From a virus: DNA of 29,246 nt. Position numbers and translations under genes: made by a program. The notes beneath the pieces were generated by a model, which worked only from the letters and a program-made list of their open reading frames with translations, was not told where the DNA came from and made no database searches. Shown in pieces: positions 2,607 through 12,548 of this stretch (its first letter is position 1; every line of letters starts with the position of its first letter). The stretch spans positions 1-29,246 of IMG/VR virus record IMGVR_UViG_3300034066_002164, one strand, 5' to 3'.

Positions 2607-4361
2607 ATGACGACTCCAGACGATCCGCAAAGTTATTTTAAAGTTGGTGATAACGGAAGAGACCGATACTCTAATCCGTTTTACAACATTCCTCTGCAGT
2701 ACTTGCCGATGAATATCGAGGGCATGCTCTTATGGGCAGAGCATTTCCTCTATAGAAACGGTTTTTACAAACAGGCTCTTAATAGAATAGCTAATTACTT
2801 CATAACATCTTTAAGCATTGAGTGCGATGATGAAGAAGCTAAAAAGACATATCAAGAAGTATTAGACCAGCTAGGCTGGAAGAAAATATGCTCTAAAGCA
2901 GGTTTAAACTTACTGGCTTATGGTAACGAGTTCGTCACCGTCAATCAGGGGTTCCACAGATATCTTGTTTGTCCTAGCTGCGCAAAGTCTTCAAACATCG
3001 ATAAAATTAATAATTTCGAATTCAACAAAGGTAAATACACTATGCTTTGTTTGAAGTGTAATTATAAAGGAGAACATAAAGTTGCAGACAAGCCAGCCAA
3101 CGACATAGAAAAGATTCATGTGGTTCATTGGCCTGCAAAAGAAATCAAAATTCGCTACGAAGAAACAACTGGAGAAGCCGAGTTCTTTTGGGATATTCCG
3201 CAGCAGTACGCTAAGAAAGTAACAACTAAAAACAACAAGTTTTATAGTAAGAAAACACCTAAAGTGGTTTTCGACTGCATCTTTAACAAGACGATGCTCT
3301 CGTTTAATTCTAAAAACTTTCTGCATCTAAAACTGGATACTCCTAGCACAATCAGAACTGACGGGAAATCCATCCCTCCCAGTATGTTTATTTTTGAAGA
3401 TCTTTTCATGCTTCAAACTTTGAAAAGATATAATGAAGTTATTTGCTTCGAAGATATTGCTCCATTCCGTGTTATCTCTATGGGTGACGCTACCAATCCG
3501 GCAGCAAATCCTCTCTTGAACCAAAACGGAGGCATATGGTCTAGCGCCGTAGACTCTATGATTGAAGAGCATAGAAGGGATCCAGGATCATATCATAAGT
3601 TTCCATTTAATCTTAACTACCAACAGTTAGGCGGCGAAGGCACAAAGCTGGCTCCTGTAGAGATGATGGAGCATGCCAAGAATGCTATATTGAACGCTCT
3701 TGATGTTCCTGTAGAGATGTTCCAGATGAGCTTTCAACAACAGGCCGCAGGTCCTATGTTGCGTATGTTTGAGAATGCTTGGAGCGTTATCCCAAGTAAC
3801 TACAACACTATGCTGAACCATATCGGTATGGTAGTCAGTAATATTATGGGTTTACCTAAAGCGAAGATTAGTCTTATTCCGATTACTTTCTCTGACGATA
3901 TGGAGAGAAAAGGTGTGGTTGGTCAGCTCGTCAGCGCAAATGCTATTGCAAGAAGCGAGCTGCTTAAACTATACAACTTCGATTATTCTGACCAGATCAG
4001 AAAGAAAATGGAAGAAGACAGAGTTACTCAGGAGCTTCAGCAAGAAGAACAGGAGCGCCAGCAGATTGCACAAGCCACTCAGCAGAATGTTATGCAGATG
4101 CTTCAGGGACAACAACAGCAAGGACAGCCTGGAGCTGCTCCTGGCGGAGGTGGAGGAGGTATGACTCCTCAAGACGCACTTGCGCAAGCTCAGCAAATAG
4201 CTCAGCAATTGTTCCCAATGGATGGTGCGCAGAGAAGATCGCAATTACAGCAAATAAAGGCACAAGATCAGGAGTTATACGCTCAGGTGAAGTCGCAGTT
4301 AGAGCAGATGACCTCTCAGAGCAAGTCGCAGGGATTACAACAAGCCAAATCAGCACAATGA
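2607..4361 (+). CDS. Phage portal protein with internal zinc ribbon
   Basis: 584 residues. The portal is a dodecameric ring at the capsid vertex through which DNA is packaged and ejected. The call rests on overall character: an N-terminal LPMNIEGMLLWAEHFLYRNGFYKQALNRIANYF segment typical of the start of portals, central alpha/beta regions, the DVPVEMFQMSF...AAGPMLRMFENA segment that resembles the portal stem/wing region, and a long Gln-rich C-terminus (about 470-584). Unusual is a CPSC...CLKC pair at C122, C125, C148 and C151, a likely zinc ribbon inserted in the N-terminal half, which most portals lack. A Gly6 run sits near residue 515. Its TGA overlaps the nrdA ATG by 4 bases. Confidence 0.8.
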   Translation: MTTPDDPQSYFKVGDNGRDRYSNPFYNIPLQYLPMNIEGMLLWAEHFLYRNGFYKQALNRIANYFITSLSIECDDEEAKKTYQEVLDQLGWKKICSKAGLNLLAYGNEFVTVNQGFHRYLVCPSCAKSSNIDKINNFEFNKGKYTMLCLKCNYKGEHKVADKPANDIEKIHVVHWPAKEIKIRYEETTGEAEFFWDIPQQYAKKVTTKNNKFYSKKTPKVVFDCIFNKTMLSFNSKNFLHLKLDTPSTIRTDGKSIPPSMFIFEDLFMLQTLKRYNEVICFEDIAPFRVISMGDATNPAANPLLNQNGGIWSSAVDSMIEEHRRDPGSYHKFPFNLNYQQLGGEGTKLAPVEMMEHAKNAILNALDVPVEMFQMSFQQQAAGPMLRMFENAWSVIPSNYNTMLNHIGMVVSNIMGLPKAKISLIPITFSDDMERKGVVGQLVSANAIARSELLKLYNFDYSDQIRKKMEEDRVTQELQQEEQERQQIAQATQQNVMQMLQGQQQQGQPGAAPGGGGGGMTPQDALAQAQQIAQQLFPMDGAQRRSQLQQIKAQDQELYAQVKSQLEQMTSQSKSQGLQQAKSAQ

Positions 4362-6619
4362 GCGAAAAAATTCTAAACGTAACAAAAAGAAACGGTAGTC
4401 TGGTACCTTTTAATGTTGAGAACATTAATAAAGTAATTAAATGGGCTACACACGGTATATCTGGTGTGAGTGTCTCGGATATCGAGATAAACACAAAACT
4501 CAACCTAGTCGAGGGTATCTCGACCAGTGAGATCCATAAGGTGTTAATTGAGTCAGCTATTAATCTATTTAACGAAGAGTCTCCTAACTATCAGAAAGTG
4601 GCAGCCAATCTTCTAAACTACCAGCTTCGTAAAGATGTCTGGGGAGGAAAACACCCGCCTAGGCTTTTTGAGTTTATTACTAATTGTACAAACAAAGGAT
4701 TGTATCATCCTGAAATTTTAGAAAAATATTCTAAATGCGAGATCGATAAGCTTGATGACAAAATTAATCACGATCGAGACTATAACTTTACATATGCAGG
4801 ATTGAAGCAACTCTGTGATAAGTATTTTATACAAAACCGCAAAACAAAAGAACTCTTTGAGACTCCGCAGTTTGCTTACATGCTTGTGTCTATGGTTAGC
4901 TTTATAAACTATCCAGAAGACATTCGTTTGACCTATGTAAAGCGAGCCTATGATAGATACAGTAAACATAAGGTCAATCTGCCCACACCTCAGATGGCTG
5001 GGTTACGCGGCACTCTCAAACAATATGCTTCATGTTGCCTGATAGATGTCGACGACTCGAAAGAGTCTATATTCAGCAGCAATACCGCTACAGGTTTCGC
5101 TACATGTCAGCGATATGGTATAGGAATTAACTTCGGTAGAATCAGAGGCAAGAACACAGAGATAGGCAACGGTAGCGTTGTTCATACCGGAGTAATTCCT
5201 TTTCTTAAAGTGTTTGAAGCTACTGTAAAGAGCTGTCAGCAAAACGGAATTAGGGGCGGTGGAGCTACCGTTAATTTTCCTATCTGGCATTATGACATCG
5301 AAGATGTCCTCGTATTGAAGAATAATGGAGGTACAGAAGACAGCCGCGTCAGAAAGATTGACTATGTGATTCAGTTCTCAAAACTGTTTTACGATAGAAT
5401 TCAGCGCGGAGAAAACATCACGCTTTTTTCACCCCACGAAGTCAAAGATCTGTACAACACTTTTGGTCTTCCTGAGTTTGATGAACTATATTTGAAATAC
5501 GAAAAAGACCCTAAAATCAAATATAGAAAGACCGTCAAATCATCTAGCTTGATAAGTCTCTTCATTAAAGAACGTGCAGAGACATCTAGAATCTATGTTA
5601 TGAACATGGATCACTGTAACGAACACAGTCCTTTCTTGGACCGTGTAACTATGACAAATCTGTGTGTGGAAGTAACTCATCCAACAGTTCCCATTAAACA
5701 TATTGATGATCCTGAAGGCGAAATAGGTATTTGTGTCTTGTCAGCTATTAATCTTCTAGAGATAAAAGATGACGAAGACCTGAGAGACACTTGCGATATT
5801 ATTGTTAGACAGCTCGACGAGCTCATTGACTATCAGGGTTATTTCACTCCAGCAGCCGAAAGGTTTACTAAGAGATGGAGAAGTCTTGGAGTTGGTATTA
5901 CCAATCTTGCCGCTTATTTTGCAAAAAATAACTTTAAGTATACTGATAGAGGAGCTTCAGAGTTCGCTAGCAATATCATGGAAAAGATCCAGTACTATCT
6001 GATTAGCACTTCGATTGATTTGGCCGAAGAAAAAGGTCCGTGCGAATACTTCAGCAAAACCAAGTATGCGAAAGGAATTCTTCCTATTGATACATATAAG
6101 AAGAAATTAGACTCAGTGTTACCTCATAAGCCTCTGCTTGATTGGGAGTCGCTGAGAGCCAGGATACTTGTATCAGGTATGCGTCACAGTACACTGACTG
6201 CTCTTATGCCTGCAGAGTCTAGTTCTGTAATTCAGAACTCTACAAATGGAGTCGAGCCTGTTCGTTCGCTTCTTACATTCAAGGGTTCTAAGGCTAATTC
6301 TGTACCAGTACTTGTACCTAATTATACATCATGCAAAAATAAATACACTTTGGCGTTTGATATGCCGAATAATATTGAATGGATTAACATTATAGCGAGT
6401 CTGCAGAAGTGGGTAGATATGAGTATTTCCGCAAATCTTTATTATAATCCTGATCATTATGCTAACAAAATGCTGCCTGATTCGGTTATAATTAAAGAGT
6501 TACTGTATGCCTATAGTATGGGTGTGAAAACACTCTATTATAATAATATGCAGGACGGAGACAAACAATCAGCCTCAGGAGCGGAAGACTCTTGTGCAAG
6601 TGGAGCATGCGCTATATAA
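4358..6619 (+). CDS. nrdA: Class Ia ribonucleoside-diphosphate reductase, alpha subunit
   Basis: 753 residues, close to E. coli NrdA (761). It reduces NDPs to dNDPs using a radical delivered from NrdB. An N-terminal ATP-cone (about 7-95, VTKRNGSLVPFNVENINKVI) predicts allosteric activity control. Catalytic residues are present: C226 (SCCLID) and C459 (GICVLSA) as the redox pair, C436 as the thiyl radical site, and N434 and E438 in TNLCVEV. The YY radical-transfer pair lies near the C-terminus (LYYNN), and the tail CASGACAI carries the C746/C751 pair that is re-reduced by thioredoxin or glutaredoxin. The ATG lies inside the portal stop (ATGA), so translation is probably coupled to the portal. 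nrdB follows after 4 bases. No intein or split is visible. Confidence 0.97.
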   Translation: MSEKILNVTKRNGSLVPFNVENINKVIKWATHGISGVSVSDIEINTKLNLVEGISTSEIHKVLIESAINLFNEESPNYQKVAANLLNYQLRKDVWGGKHPPRLFEFITNCTNKGLYHPEILEKYSKCEIDKLDDKINHDRDYNFTYAGLKQLCDKYFIQNRKTKELFETPQFAYMLVSMVSFINYPEDIRLTYVKRAYDRYSKHKVNLPTPQMAGLRGTLKQYASCCLIDVDDSKESIFSSNTATGFATCQRYGIGINFGRIRGKNTEIGNGSVVHTGVIPFLKVFEATVKSCQQNGIRGGGATVNFPIWHYDIEDVLVLKNNGGTEDSRVRKIDYVIQFSKLFYDRIQRGENITLFSPHEVKDLYNTFGLPEFDELYLKYEKDPKIKYRKTVKSSSLISLFIKERAETSRIYVMNMDHCNEHSPFLDRVTMTNLCVEVTHPTVPIKHIDDPEGEIGICVLSAINLLEIKDDEDLRDTCDIIVRQLDELIDYQGYFTPAAERFTKRWRSLGVGITNLAAYFAKNNFKYTDRGASEFASNIMEKIQYYLISTSIDLAEEKGPCEYFSKTKYAKGILPIDTYKKKLDSVLPHKPLLDWESLRARILVSGMRHSTLTALMPAESSSVIQNSTNGVEPVRSLLTFKGSKANSVPVLVPNYTSCKNKYTLAFDMPNNIEWINIIASLQKWVDMSISANLYYNPDHYANKMLPDSVIIKELLYAYSMGVKTLYYNNMQDGDKQSASGAEDSCASGACAI

Positions 6620-6623
6620 ACAT

Positions 6624-7685
6624 ATGAGTACTGTACTTAACACAAATAATGTAGATACTAGGTTTCAGCCTCTTTTCTTTGGACAGCCTCTAGCATTACA
6701 GAGATACGATAAGCTTAAATATCCTAAACTATATGAGCTTGCCGAAAGAATGGAAGAGTATTTCTGGCGCGCCAATGAAGTCAGCCTAGTCAAAGATCGT
6801 AATGACTATGATGATTTGACCGAGACTGAAAAGTTTGTTTTTGACACAAACCTAAAATGGCAGACAGCGACTGACTCGATGCTCTCTAGAAGTTTGAATA
6901 CTCTTGGAAGATATGTATCCAATCCAGAACTTGAAGCATGCATTCAGGTATGGTCTTTCTTCGAATCCAATATTCATTCTAGGTCATATTCGCATATTCT
7001 CAAGAATGTCTATCCTGACGAGTCTGTTTTCTGGGATTCTATTCTTCAGGACGAAGAAGTAGTTAGAAGGGCCAATGAAATTAAAAACGATTATGATAGC
7101 TTCTTCAATGACGAAGGAGATGCTAAGCAGAAGATTTTTAACGCGCTTTTATCCACACAGATAACAGAAGGATTAGCTTTTTATACTTCGTTTGTGTGCA
7201 GCTTTTTCTTTGCTGCTAGAGGCAAGATGGAAGGTAATGGCAAAATCATTAAGTTCATCGCTAGAGATGAGAATCTACATGTAGCTGTAAGCCAGAACGT
7301 ACTGTCCTACCTCAGAGATAATGAAGACGAGGGTTTCGTAGATTTGGTGAAACAGAATCAGGAAAAAGTTTATGATGCCTATCATATGGCTGTAGAACAT
7401 GAAAAGAGATGGGCTGACTACCTTTTCAGCAGAGGTCCCCTTCTAGGGCTTAATGCAGATATCCTGAAGGGTTATATCGAGTGGCTTGCTAACAACCGGC
7501 TCGCCTCTTTAGGTTATAAGAAAATGTTTGGAGTTAAAAAGAACCCTCTGGGTGCATGGTATGATCAATTCATGAACTCTGAAAAGATTCAATTTGCTCC
7601 TCAGGAAACAGAGCTTACAGCGTATAAAATAGGAGCTAGAGATACACAAGTAAACTTGAGTGAATTCTCAGACATAGAATTATAA
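6624..7685 (+). CDS. nrdB: Class Ia ribonucleoside-diphosphate reductase, beta subunit
   Basis: 353 residues. It houses the di-metal site and tyrosyl radical for NrdA. By comparison with E. coli NrdB: D84, H118, the radical Tyr122 (IHSRSY), Glu182 (TEGLAFY), and the E-x2-H pair in ARDENLH (E216, H219) are visible. The first helix reads WSFFESNIH, so the Glu is four rather than three residues before His118; see findings. The C-terminus ends in SEFSDIEL, the usual acidic peptide that docks on NrdA. I chose the ATG at 6624, 4 bases after the nrdA stop, because MSTVLNTN then aligns with other NrdB N-termini; a frame from 6594 would add ten residues inside nrdA. Confidence 0.95.
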   Translation: MSTVLNTNNVDTRFQPLFFGQPLALQRYDKLKYPKLYELAERMEEYFWRANEVSLVKDRNDYDDLTETEKFVFDTNLKWQTATDSMLSRSLNTLGRYVSNPELEACIQVWSFFESNIHSRSYSHILKNVYPDESVFWDSILQDEEVVRRANEIKNDYDSFFNDEGDAKQKIFNALLSTQITEGLAFYTSFVCSFFFAARGKMEGNGKIIKFIARDENLHVAVSQNVLSYLRDNEDEGFVDLVKQNQEKVYDAYHMAVEHEKRWADYLFSRGPLLGLNADILKGYIEWLANNRLASLGYKKMFGVKKNPLGAWYDQFMNSEKIQFAPQETELTAYKIGARDTQVNLSEFSDIEL

Positions 7686-7686
7686 T

Positions 7687-8076
7687 ATGCCAAAAAAACC
7701 AGCTTATAAATGTGTAGTTAGTGGAAAGCCTATTCCTAAAGAGCGCGTAGAAGCACTCATATCTTTAGGCATACCAGAGACAAGGTGGACTTGCGTGGAG
7801 CACGCTCTAGATGTGCCTAGAAAAGGTATTTATCTAGGCGAGGTGGGTACCAGTGAGCTCTTGATAGTTGATAAAGTCTATAACGACTCTGTGCGCTCTG
7901 TTTTCAGGGGTTCCAGTAAGGCTGCTAGCAAAGCCTCCACCGAGGCAGAGGCTCCCGACGATGGCGAAGAGTCCTCAGTAGACTATAATGAACGAGAGTT
8001 GAACTATTATAATTCTAGCGACGAGCAAGTCGACCCAGAAGAAAAAATAGAAATTATCAAGCGACATAACCCGTAG
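7687..8076 (+). CDS. Small protein with degenerate TraR/DksA-like zinc-finger motif
   Basis: 129 residues. The N-terminal ~40 residues read like the zinc-finger end of TraR/DksA-type proteins (SGKPIPKERVEAL, then TCVEHA), with C-x2-S and C-x2-H in place of two C-x2-C pairs. Known family members bind the RNA polymerase secondary channel and change promoter choice, but they normally have a coiled-coil that is absent here, so function is uncertain. The C-terminal half is low-complexity and acidic (SSKAASKASTEAEAPDDGEE, then DEQVDPEEK). It follows nrdB after 1 base and is probably co-transcribed. It ends just before the hairpin at 8081-8120. Confidence 0.6.
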   Translation: MPKKPAYKCVVSGKPIPKERVEALISLGIPETRWTCVEHALDVPRKGIYLGEVGTSELLIVDKVYNDSVRSVFRGSSKAASKASTEAEAPDDGEESSVDYNERELNYYNSSDEQVDPEEKIEIIKRHNP

Positions 8077-8080
8077 TTTT

Positions 8081-8120
8081 GGCTATAATAGATATACAAA
8101 AACCCAATATCTATTATGCC
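8081..8120 (+). promoter_or_regulatory. Hairpin that buries the start codon of the next gene
   Basis: ATAATAGATAT (8085-8095) and ATATCTATTAT (8107-8117) are perfect 11-bp arms around an 11-nt loop. GGC (8081-8083) and GCC (8118-8120) add 3 bp with one bulged T. The ATG of the downstream gene (8116-8118) lies in the 3' arm. The same stretch contains TATAAT (8084-8089), so a promoter is an alternative or overlapping reading. Either way it is a probable control point at the entry to the lysis module. Confidence 0.55.
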
Positions 8121-8652
8121 TGACGCTCAATCTAACTTCATACCTAATGATAACTCAGAGGTCTCAAAATACAATATTGCAATCGCTATCACTGAATTGC
8201 AAGCCCAACAAGAGTCGTTGAAGCAGAAAGTTGAAGATTTAAACATCAAGAGCGAAGCTACAAATATAGCGCTAAAAGCTAAGATAGAGTCTATAGAGAA
8301 AAATATAGCCGAAGTCAGAGATCAAGCTAGAGACGCTATGCATATTAGCGTAGGTGTCGACGGTAAAAACGGTTTAAGAGGATCTATGCAGAGCCTTTTA
8401 GATGATGTTTCTAGTATGTCAGAATCTTTACAAGTTCTTAAGCAAACAGCCAATGACTACTCTGAAATGAAGACACTGCTGCTTAGATTGTTTGCGGCTT
8501 CGGCAATGACCATCATTTGCCAATTCGGAGGTGCGGTATGGTTTGTATCTTCACTACATAGTCGTCAGGAAAGTATGCGTGAAGATTTAAACAGAGTTCT
8601 GACAATTCTTGATAAGCGGTTTGATGATAGTCCGAAAGCCATAGTAAAGTAA
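8116..8652 (+). CDS. Coiled-coil single-span membrane protein, first gene of lysis module
   Basis: 178 residues. An N-terminal soluble part with long heptad-like coiled-coil (about 22-75 and 90-120) is followed by one predicted transmembrane segment at about 121-146 (RLFAASAMTIICQFGGAVWF) and a short charged tail (SRQESMREDLNRVL). The layout resembles XhlA-type hemolysin/holin accessory proteins, but identity is not certain. It sits first in a five-gene cluster ending in a lysozyme. The ATG is the only good start and lies in the 3' arm of the preceding hairpin. A terminator-like hairpin starts 27 bases after its stop. Confidence 0.7.
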   Translation: MPDAQSNFIPNDNSEVSKYNIAIAITELQAQQESLKQKVEDLNIKSEATNIALKAKIESIEKNIAEVRDQARDAMHISVGVDGKNGLRGSMQSLLDDVSSMSESLQVLKQTANDYSEMKTLLLRLFAASAMTIICQFGGAVWFVSSLHSRQESMREDLNRVLTILDKRFDDSPKAIVK

Positions 8653-8674
8653 CCTTAATTAGTTAGACACATAT

Positions 8675-8727
8675 CTTTAATGCTGGTATAGTTCTACCAT
8701 GTCTAGGACTATACCAGCATTTTTTTT
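8675..8727 (+). terminator. Rho-independent terminator-like hairpin containing the next gene's start
   Basis: AATGCTGGTATAGT (8679-8692) pairs perfectly with ACTATACCAGCATT (8708-8721). TCTA/TAGG extends the stem by 4 bp with one G-U, leaving a 7-nt loop (8697-8703). Seven T residues follow (8721-8727). This is the classical form of an intrinsic terminator for the upstream gene. The loop contains the ATG of the lipoprotein gene, and the left arm also reads TGGTATAGT, similar to an extended -10 promoter. Confidence 0.65.
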
Positions 8728-8911
8728 ATGCTTTTTACTTAGCGGTTGCGTGACTAGGTTTAAAGAATTAGTGCCTCCTATTAAGCAGGCTCCGCCAGAA
8801 GCTAGTTCAGGCTCGCTAGATTACGGTATCGCTGAACTGGAAGAGACTCTCACGCATACTTCATCTAGAGCCGAGCGTATAAGAATACTTATCGAATCTC
8901 TAACATTCTAA
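8699..8911 (+). CDS. Small lipoprotein, candidate outer-membrane spanin (o-spanin)
   Basis: 70 residues. The N-terminus MSRTIPAFFLCFLLSGC is a short lipoprotein signal with lipobox LSGC; Cys17 would be acylated. The mature part is only about 53 residues and begins with a Pro-rich stretch (PPIKQAPPEASSG), as in o-spanins, which disrupt the outer membrane at lysis with an inner-membrane partner. It lies among membrane and lysozyme genes, which supports the role. Its ATG is in the apical loop of the hairpin at 8675-8727, and the 3' arm and T tract encode part of the signal peptide. No in-frame alternative start would keep the signal. Confidence 0.6.
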   Translation: MSRTIPAFFLCFLLSGCVTRFKELVPPIKQAPPEASSGSLDYGIAELEETLTHTSSRAERIRILIESLTF

Positions 8912-9440: not shown

Positions 9441-9875
9441 ATGCTAGCTGTCATCCAAAACATTGTCAAAACAGGAGCCTCTTTTCTACAGTCTGGTGTA
9501 GCTCCCCCTAACGCAAGCGAAGAAACAGCGCAACAGTTAGCAGACACAAATCATTTAACATCTAAAAAGTTCTTTGCCGCTTTTACAGGTTTTATTATTC
9601 TTGGAGTATTTTTCGCTGTAGGTATAGCTATTCTGTTTGCGCTTGCTGATAAGCCTGATGTAGTTTCGTACTATGTAACAATGTTTACAAAAACCATGGA
9701 AGTTTTTGCTGCGATCATGGCTGTATATATTGGAGGTCAAGCTGTAGTTGATCTTAAATACAATAGCTCCAGCAACACCACGCTTGAAAGTAAGCACCAA
9801 AAAATAGATATAACCACAAGAGTTATAGCCAACGAAAAAGAAGACGATTACGAATTACACGACCATGAAGATTGA
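9441..9875 (+). CDS. Two-span membrane protein, holin candidate
   Basis: 144 residues. Two strongly hydrophobic segments at about 47-69 (FTGFIILGVFFAVGIAILFAL) and 82-104 (TMEVFAAIMAVYIGGQAVVDL) with a short loop, an N-terminal amphipathic region and a charged His/Glu/Asp tail. Size, two-helix topology and the overlapping lysozyme gene next to it fit a class II holin, which opens the inner membrane so the endolysin can reach the cell wall. No sequence family is recognised. Its stop overlaps the endolysin start by 11 bases, suggesting coupled translation. It begins 3 bases after the previous gene. Confidence 0.6.
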   Translation: MLAVIQNIVKTGASFLQSGVAPPNASEETAQQLADTNHLTSKKFFAAFTGFIILGVFFAVGIAILFALADKPDVVSYYVTMFTKTMEVFAAIMAVYIGGQAVVDLKYNSSSNTTLESKHQKIDITTRVIANEKEDDYELHDHED

Positions 9876-10464
9876 TGCTAAAGGAATAAACTTTATAGTT
9901 GAAGAAGAGACTGGCGGCAGAGAGTATTATGAGCGCGTATATAAAAGCTCGTTTATCTGGCCTAAAGGGGCAAGCGGATGCACTGCGATGGTCGGCATAG
10001 ATATTGGTTACTATACAGAAGAAGAGGTTAATAAGATCTTTAAACCTCTGACCACAGAAGAAGAACTCAAAAGAATACAGAGAGGTAGAGGAATCAAAGG
10101 CATTCTGGCCAAGAATTATCTTAAAAATATTAAAGATATCACTTTTTCTTGGGAAGAGTCTCTGTATACTTTTTCAGAATTTATTCTTCCGAAGTTTTTA
10201 AGACTGACTGACAAAGCATTCCCAGGAGCTGCAGAGCTTCTTATGCCTGCAAAAACAGCTTTAGTTTCTTTAGTTTTCAATAGAGGAACCTCTATGAAAG
10301 GAGCTTCCCGTAGAGAAATGCTGAATATTAGAAAGCTTGTAGGAAATAAAGACTACAAGCAAATAGCCGAGGAAATCAGAAGCATGAAAAGACTGTGGGA
10401 CAGCTCTTCTGGTTTGGTGGGCAGAAGAGAAAGAGAGGCATGCCTCGTAGATAAATGCGTCTAG
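9865..10464 (+). CDS. Lysozyme-like endolysin (muramidase fold)
   Basis: 199 residues. The start matches phage and pesticin-type lysozymes: an early acidic cluster before GG (E13-E15, EEETGG) that would supply the catalytic Glu, then IWPKGASGCTAMVGIDIGYY (31-50), like the WPGGASGVTIGIGYDLGY block of that family. A later helix (AKTALVSLVFNRGTSM) matches the conserved ALVSLVFNRG block. It would cut the glycan strand of peptidoglycan. There is no signal peptide, so release depends on a holin, consistent with the gene before it. Two unusual residues are C39 and the DIGYY ending in place of the usual YDLGY. Its stop TAG shares CTAG with the stop of the convergent gene on the other strand. Confidence 0.8.
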   Translation: MKIDAKGINFIVEEETGGREYYERVYKSSFIWPKGASGCTAMVGIDIGYYTEEEVNKIFKPLTTEEELKRIQRGRGIKGILAKNYLKNIKDITFSWEESLYTFSEFILPKFLRLTDKAFPGAAELLMPAKTALVSLVFNRGTSMKGASRREMLNIRKLVGNKDYKQIAEEIRSMKRLWDSSSGLVGRREREACLVDKCV

Positions 10465-12462: not shown

Positions 12463-12494
12463 TTGCTTGTTTGGATAAGATGGTGTGAAACAAA

Positions 12495-12525
12495 AAGAGA
12501 GCATGCTATAAAAACATGCTCTCTT
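12495..12525 (-). terminator. Intrinsic terminator or leader hairpin on the minus strand
   Basis: AAGAGAGCATG (12495-12505) and CATGCTCTCTT (12515-12525) are perfectly complementary (11 bp) with a 9-nt loop. Read leftwards, the stem is followed by TTTTGTTT, a U tract. It lies after the stop of the gene at 12550-12762 and 33 bases before the start at 12462. Because a promoter-like element (12549-12557) lies between the upstream gene and the hairpin, it may act as an attenuator for the downstream gene. Confidence 0.7.
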
Positions 12526-12548
12526 CAGAACAACAGACCCATCAATAT

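Follow-up and report, generated by a model that had tools for sequence, protein, structure and literature searches.

We propose that a single hairpin at the start of a lipoprotein gene acts as the combined insulator, promoter and start site of a phage lysis cassette, a reading to which we give a probability of about two in three. The hairpin lies in a 29,246-nt stretch of DNA, referred to here as the window, which is a fragment of an uncultivated large phage. According to the proposal, a sigma70-type promoter in the left arm would start the lysis mRNA at the A of the lipoprotein ATG, and this leaderless mRNA, having no left arm, could not fold the hairpin and would escape termination. Polymerase arriving from the gene at 8116 or from further upstream would copy both arms, and the hairpin with its U tract would end most of these transcripts. 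Any RNA reading through the hairpin would have its start codon trapped in the 7-nt loop that caps the 18-bp stem. Lysis would be begun from its own promoter alone, and stray transcription would be kept from causing early lysis. The elements concerned are as follows.

8116 to 8652, + strand: upstream gene for a coiled-coil membrane protein, whose transcripts would end at the hairpin
8664 to 8669, + strand: -35 element TAGACA, from a pattern scan and conservation in relatives
8679 to 8721, + strand: hairpin, with left arm 8679-8696, loop 8697-8703 and right arm 8704-8721
8684 to 8692, + strand: extended -10, with TG at 8684-8685 and TATAGT at 8687-8692, all inside the left arm, from the scan and conservation in relatives
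8699, + strand: predicted +1, the A of the ATG, six bases past the -10, a gap conserved in relatives
8699 to 8911, + strand: putative o-spanin-like lipoprotein of 70 aa with lipobox LLSGC, from the sequence, the alignment of relatives and PHROG matches
8720 to 8727, + strand: T8 tract of the terminator-like element, which in the reading frame also supplies two Phe codons and the first two letters of a Leu codon
8916 to 9437, + strand: coiled-coil membrane protein, a possible spanin partner from its position and sequence, with weak family matches only
9441 to 9875, + strand: small membrane protein, holin-like from its position and two hydrophobic stretches seen by eye, with a very weak PHROG holin match (E 0.41)
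9865 to 10464, + strand: endolysin of the phage lysozyme family (PHROG endolysin, E 3e-4; Pfam Phage_lysozyme, E 3e-4, just below the cut-off)

The arms of the hairpin form 18 pairs, 17 of them Watson-Crick and one U8693.G8707, with six G-C pairs among the 18, and the whole structure spans 43 bases. The loop reads CCATGTC and holds the ATG at 8699-8701. RNA of positions 8660-8740 folds at -30.2 kcal/mol (z = -7.55), a stability reached by none of 200 dinucleotide shuffles, and the hairpin by itself folds at -25.6 kcal/mol. No other uninterrupted hairpin in the 29 kb window is as long, the runner-up having 13 pairs. Pairing and folding bear out the 18-bp stem with the ATG in its loop that a first-pass annotation of this DNA had described. 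The T7 tract of that annotation is present, but as T8, and its first two T double as the last two pairs of the stem. The stable stem directly adjoins the U tract, which is the arrangement of an intrinsic terminator. As had also been claimed, the right arm and the T tract code for the start of the signal peptide, MSRTIPAFFL. An Rfam search gave no match, a tRNA search found none, and the exact hairpin was not found in a search of other viral contigs. A second strong hairpin with a T tract is located at 12494-12526 on the - strand and overlaps an ATG (12504). We did not count it as a second start-codon case, because 12462, further downstream, is the more likely start of that gene.

The ATG at 8699 opens a 70-aa ORF that carries a signal peptide and a lipobox MSRTIPAFFLCFLLSGC, and among the ATG, GTG and TTG starts it is the only one to yield a signal peptide with a lipobox. 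Aligning homologous lipoprotein starts, a check suggested with the first-pass annotation, places the relatives at the same methionine, so that the start codon is well supported; none of the 24 aligned relatives departs from M1 or from the cysteine of the lipobox. The Rz-like spanin family phrog_3198 was matched by 12 of these 24 at E <= 0.1 (best 1.6e-4), and the window lipoprotein matches the PHROG Rz-like spanins weakly (E 0.16). It is a small lipoprotein with a lipobox, encoded upstream of the holin-like and endolysin genes, as is characteristic of an o-spanin, and we call it o-spanin-like. Taken together, the results support the earlier view that one terminator-like hairpin, placed ahead of an o-spanin-like lipoprotein of a lysis cassette, doubles as start site and signal-peptide code.

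That annotation overlooked the promoter in the left arm of the hairpin. The extended -10 reads TGG-TATAGT and is separated from the -35 TAGACA by a spacer of 17 nt, and based on the usual sigma70 geometry from the -10 at 8687-8692, the +1 is predicted at 8699. The promoter scan gave 25 promoter-like sites in 9 kb versus 21 in shuffles, and therefore a lone promoter match is no evidence by itself. A sigma70-like match does not by itself establish a working promoter in the host, and its activity is a prediction. Since the promoter lies within the 5' arm, RNA from the predicted +1 would lack the left arm and hence the hairpin. Folded from 8699 on, the RNA has structure at chance level (z 0.16) and its first 7 nt are unpaired.

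A direct search of viral contigs with the lipoprotein found none, and the relatives were reached via the endolysin, portal and ribonucleotide reductase genes, which led to numerous IMG/VR loci whose contigs reach 227 kb. In the window, the genes for the large and small subunits of ribonucleotide reductase occupy 4358-7685, between the portal gene and the gene at 7687, and they are absent from the corresponding place in L002-L004. The portal protein (2607-4361) has a Cys-rich insertion (CPSC...CLKC) that is zinc-ribbon-like in look. The lipoprotein is syntenic in most of the related loci that cover the region. The pattern T[A/G/T]GACA-N14/15-TGnTAnnnT-N6-ATG occurs in 18 of the 27 distinct start regions, window included, and is absent in its exact form from nine, counts that are not independent events, as many of the relatives are close kin. 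Lipoprotein identity in the promoter-bearing relatives is only about 27-37%. A comparison of 15 lineages shows little or no change in the -35, the TG, the ATG and the T-A...T of the -10, in contrast to the spacer and positions -4 to -1, which vary. A fixed distance from the -10 to the ATG with free sequence is as a leaderless start demands, and we infer that transcription starts at 8699 and that translation is leaderless. L060 keeps the 6-nt gap with a spacer of 18 nt rather than 17 nt, as is permissible for a promoter. In L046, the window's neighbour in a two-gene tree, we found a near-match promoter (TGGACG, 9-nt gap).

A scan of 14 records totalling 1.9 Mb gave 10 sites with the promoter pattern, five of them at the lipoprotein, and two with a reversed control pattern; the full pattern is nearly specific to the lipoprotein gene. 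We dropped the hypothesis that many genes of the phage share a leaderless promoter, as an extended -10 at a 6-nt gap was found for 1 of 334 genes (>=100 aa). The gene upstream of the lipoprotein served as a control, and its promoter is mostly GCGACA-N17-TATAAT at a variable gap, with predicted leaders of 3-42 nt. Shine-Dalgarno sites are found at 40 of the 334 starts versus 28 in shuffles. The clade makes little use of such sites, which makes a leaderless start plausible in the host. Starts in the window and its relatives mostly lack a Shine-Dalgarno motif, and the preferred bases are A at -3 and T at -1.

The surroundings of the promoter differ among the relatives. On the one hand, a separate GC-rich hairpin with a T run lies directly before the -35 in L019, L021, L023, L040, L044, L045, L056 and L060; it would stop transcription arriving from upstream, and a new transcript would then begin at the promoter. 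On the other hand, in L002, L003, L004, L032, L036 and L037 there is no separate terminator before the -35, and the -10 region forms the left arm of a hairpin that carries the start codon in its loop; these start hairpins have no T tract and fold with z of -1.5 to -3.4. The start hairpin is recurrent, not universal: roughly half of the relatives with the promoter have a weak one or none, and its T-tract form was seen only in the window. When right arms were swapped between loci, the cognate arms outfolded every swapped arm in the window, L002-L004, L032, L036, L037 and L060; in the L019-like group, they were not better than all swapped right arms. We do not claim a pair-by-pair conserved RNA structure, since the register of the hairpin differs between lineages, for example between the window and L002. 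Judged from the sequence, the window appears to merge two insulation forms, a terminator and a start-codon hairpin. Directly before TTCAGG (ATTCAGG in L050) and the lysis -35, a run of about 6-10 G is found in L024, L026, L038 and L050.

The gene at 8116 has a promoter GCGACA-N17-TATAAT of its own (8061-8118 region), and a 12-bp hairpin (8084-8095 / 8107-8118; z -5.8) takes in its -10 with the left arm and closes with the ATG at the end of the right arm. This hairpin would be missing from RNA begun at the predicted +1 of the gene. Pairings related to this hairpin of the -10 and start were seen in L027, L029, L021, L032 and L046.

We regard as evenly poised the wider proposal that one element would be terminator, -10, leaderless start and signal-peptide code, passable only by RNA begun inside it, that the clade would insulate the same promoter variously by a separate terminator, a start-codon hairpin or both merged, and that the upstream gene would pair its -10 with the start region in several lineages.

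The hairpin could be a plain terminator of gene 8116 that overlaps the next promoter and start through genome compactness, in which case the pairing around the start codon would have no regulatory role. The ordinary terminator at the same boundary in relatives agrees with this, as does the lack of the hairpin in the near neighbour L046. However, start-codon hairpins without a T tract recur in relatives, in other registers and with cognate arms that outfold swapped ones, and gene 8116 shows a similar pairing of -10 and start region in several lineages. Accordingly, we consider a plain terminator unlikely, though with an appreciable chance of being right. Attenuation that sets the ratio of the lysis proteins, as proposed in the first-pass annotation, would have the lysis genes read mainly from upstream transcripts, with partial termination setting the amounts of the lipoprotein and the later lysis proteins. 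The strong stem and T8 between gene 8116 and the lipoprotein would suit such a role, but a conserved promoter sits inside the element, and RNA reading through, of which there may be some, would carry its start codon locked in the hairpin. Also, what is conserved is the promoter with its predicted +1 at the ATG and not the T-tract hairpin, and we find attenuation improbable. Because the promoter is conserved, the T-tract hairpin is not, and a separate terminator is present in eight loci, we favour an insulated self-standing lysis promoter over attenuation. The inverted repeat does overlap the promoter, but a DNA operator bound by a phage repressor or activator controlling lysis is very improbable, as a search of the window at <=3 mismatches gave no further copy of the arm sequence, the arms are not conserved between relatives, and a stem with a T tract suits an RNA function better.

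The insulated lysis promoter has counterparts in known systems. The IS10 transposase gene is protected from outside transcription by fold-back. Terminator insulators of mobile elements, for example Tn916, keep outside transcription from genes that are harmful if expressed early (PMC11658703). Unlike in the Tn916 insulators and IS10, the predicted terminator, promoter and start codon of the window share the same bases. As in intrinsic terminators and attenuators, the stem of the window is followed by a T tract, but its start codon is in the loop and the downstream gene's own promoter is inside the stem. Leaderless translation is established, with lambda cI as the model (PMC9031893); the lipoprotein gene would resemble cI in having its start codon at the predicted RNA 5' end and differs from it in being a lysis gene with a promoter in a hairpin arm. 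In phage T4, the start region of gene e (lysozyme), and also of soc, 49 and I-TevI, is shut in a hairpin on upstream transcripts (PMC3014915). For gene e, RNA free of the structure is made from a promoter located within the 5' arm, which is an experimental precedent (PMC3014915). The window likewise has a lysis gene whose start region folds into a helix when transcribed from upstream, with a promoter in the 5' arm. In contrast to gene e, this promoter has a sigma70-like -35 and an extended -10 (TAGACA-N17-TATAGT) in place of the T4-type late promoter TATAAATA, there is no Shine-Dalgarno site and the start is predicted to be leaderless, the hairpin ends in a T tract, and the gene is that of an o-spanin-like lipoprotein. 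The regulatory principle is already known from T4 gene e, and the arrangement proposed for the window would be a variant of that kind. In the open-access literature, we found no report of a merged terminator, promoter and start.

Phages must avoid early lysis, and in a compact genome the transcription of one gene can continue into the next. If our reading is true, a single 43-bp stretch would block outside transcription and yet fire its own, with no protein regulator needed, by a route parallel to that of T4 gene e in phages with little use of Shine-Dalgarno sites. It would offer a compact design for an insulated promoter, and it predicts that a leaderless lysis mRNA is conserved among the large, uncultivated phages of this clade.
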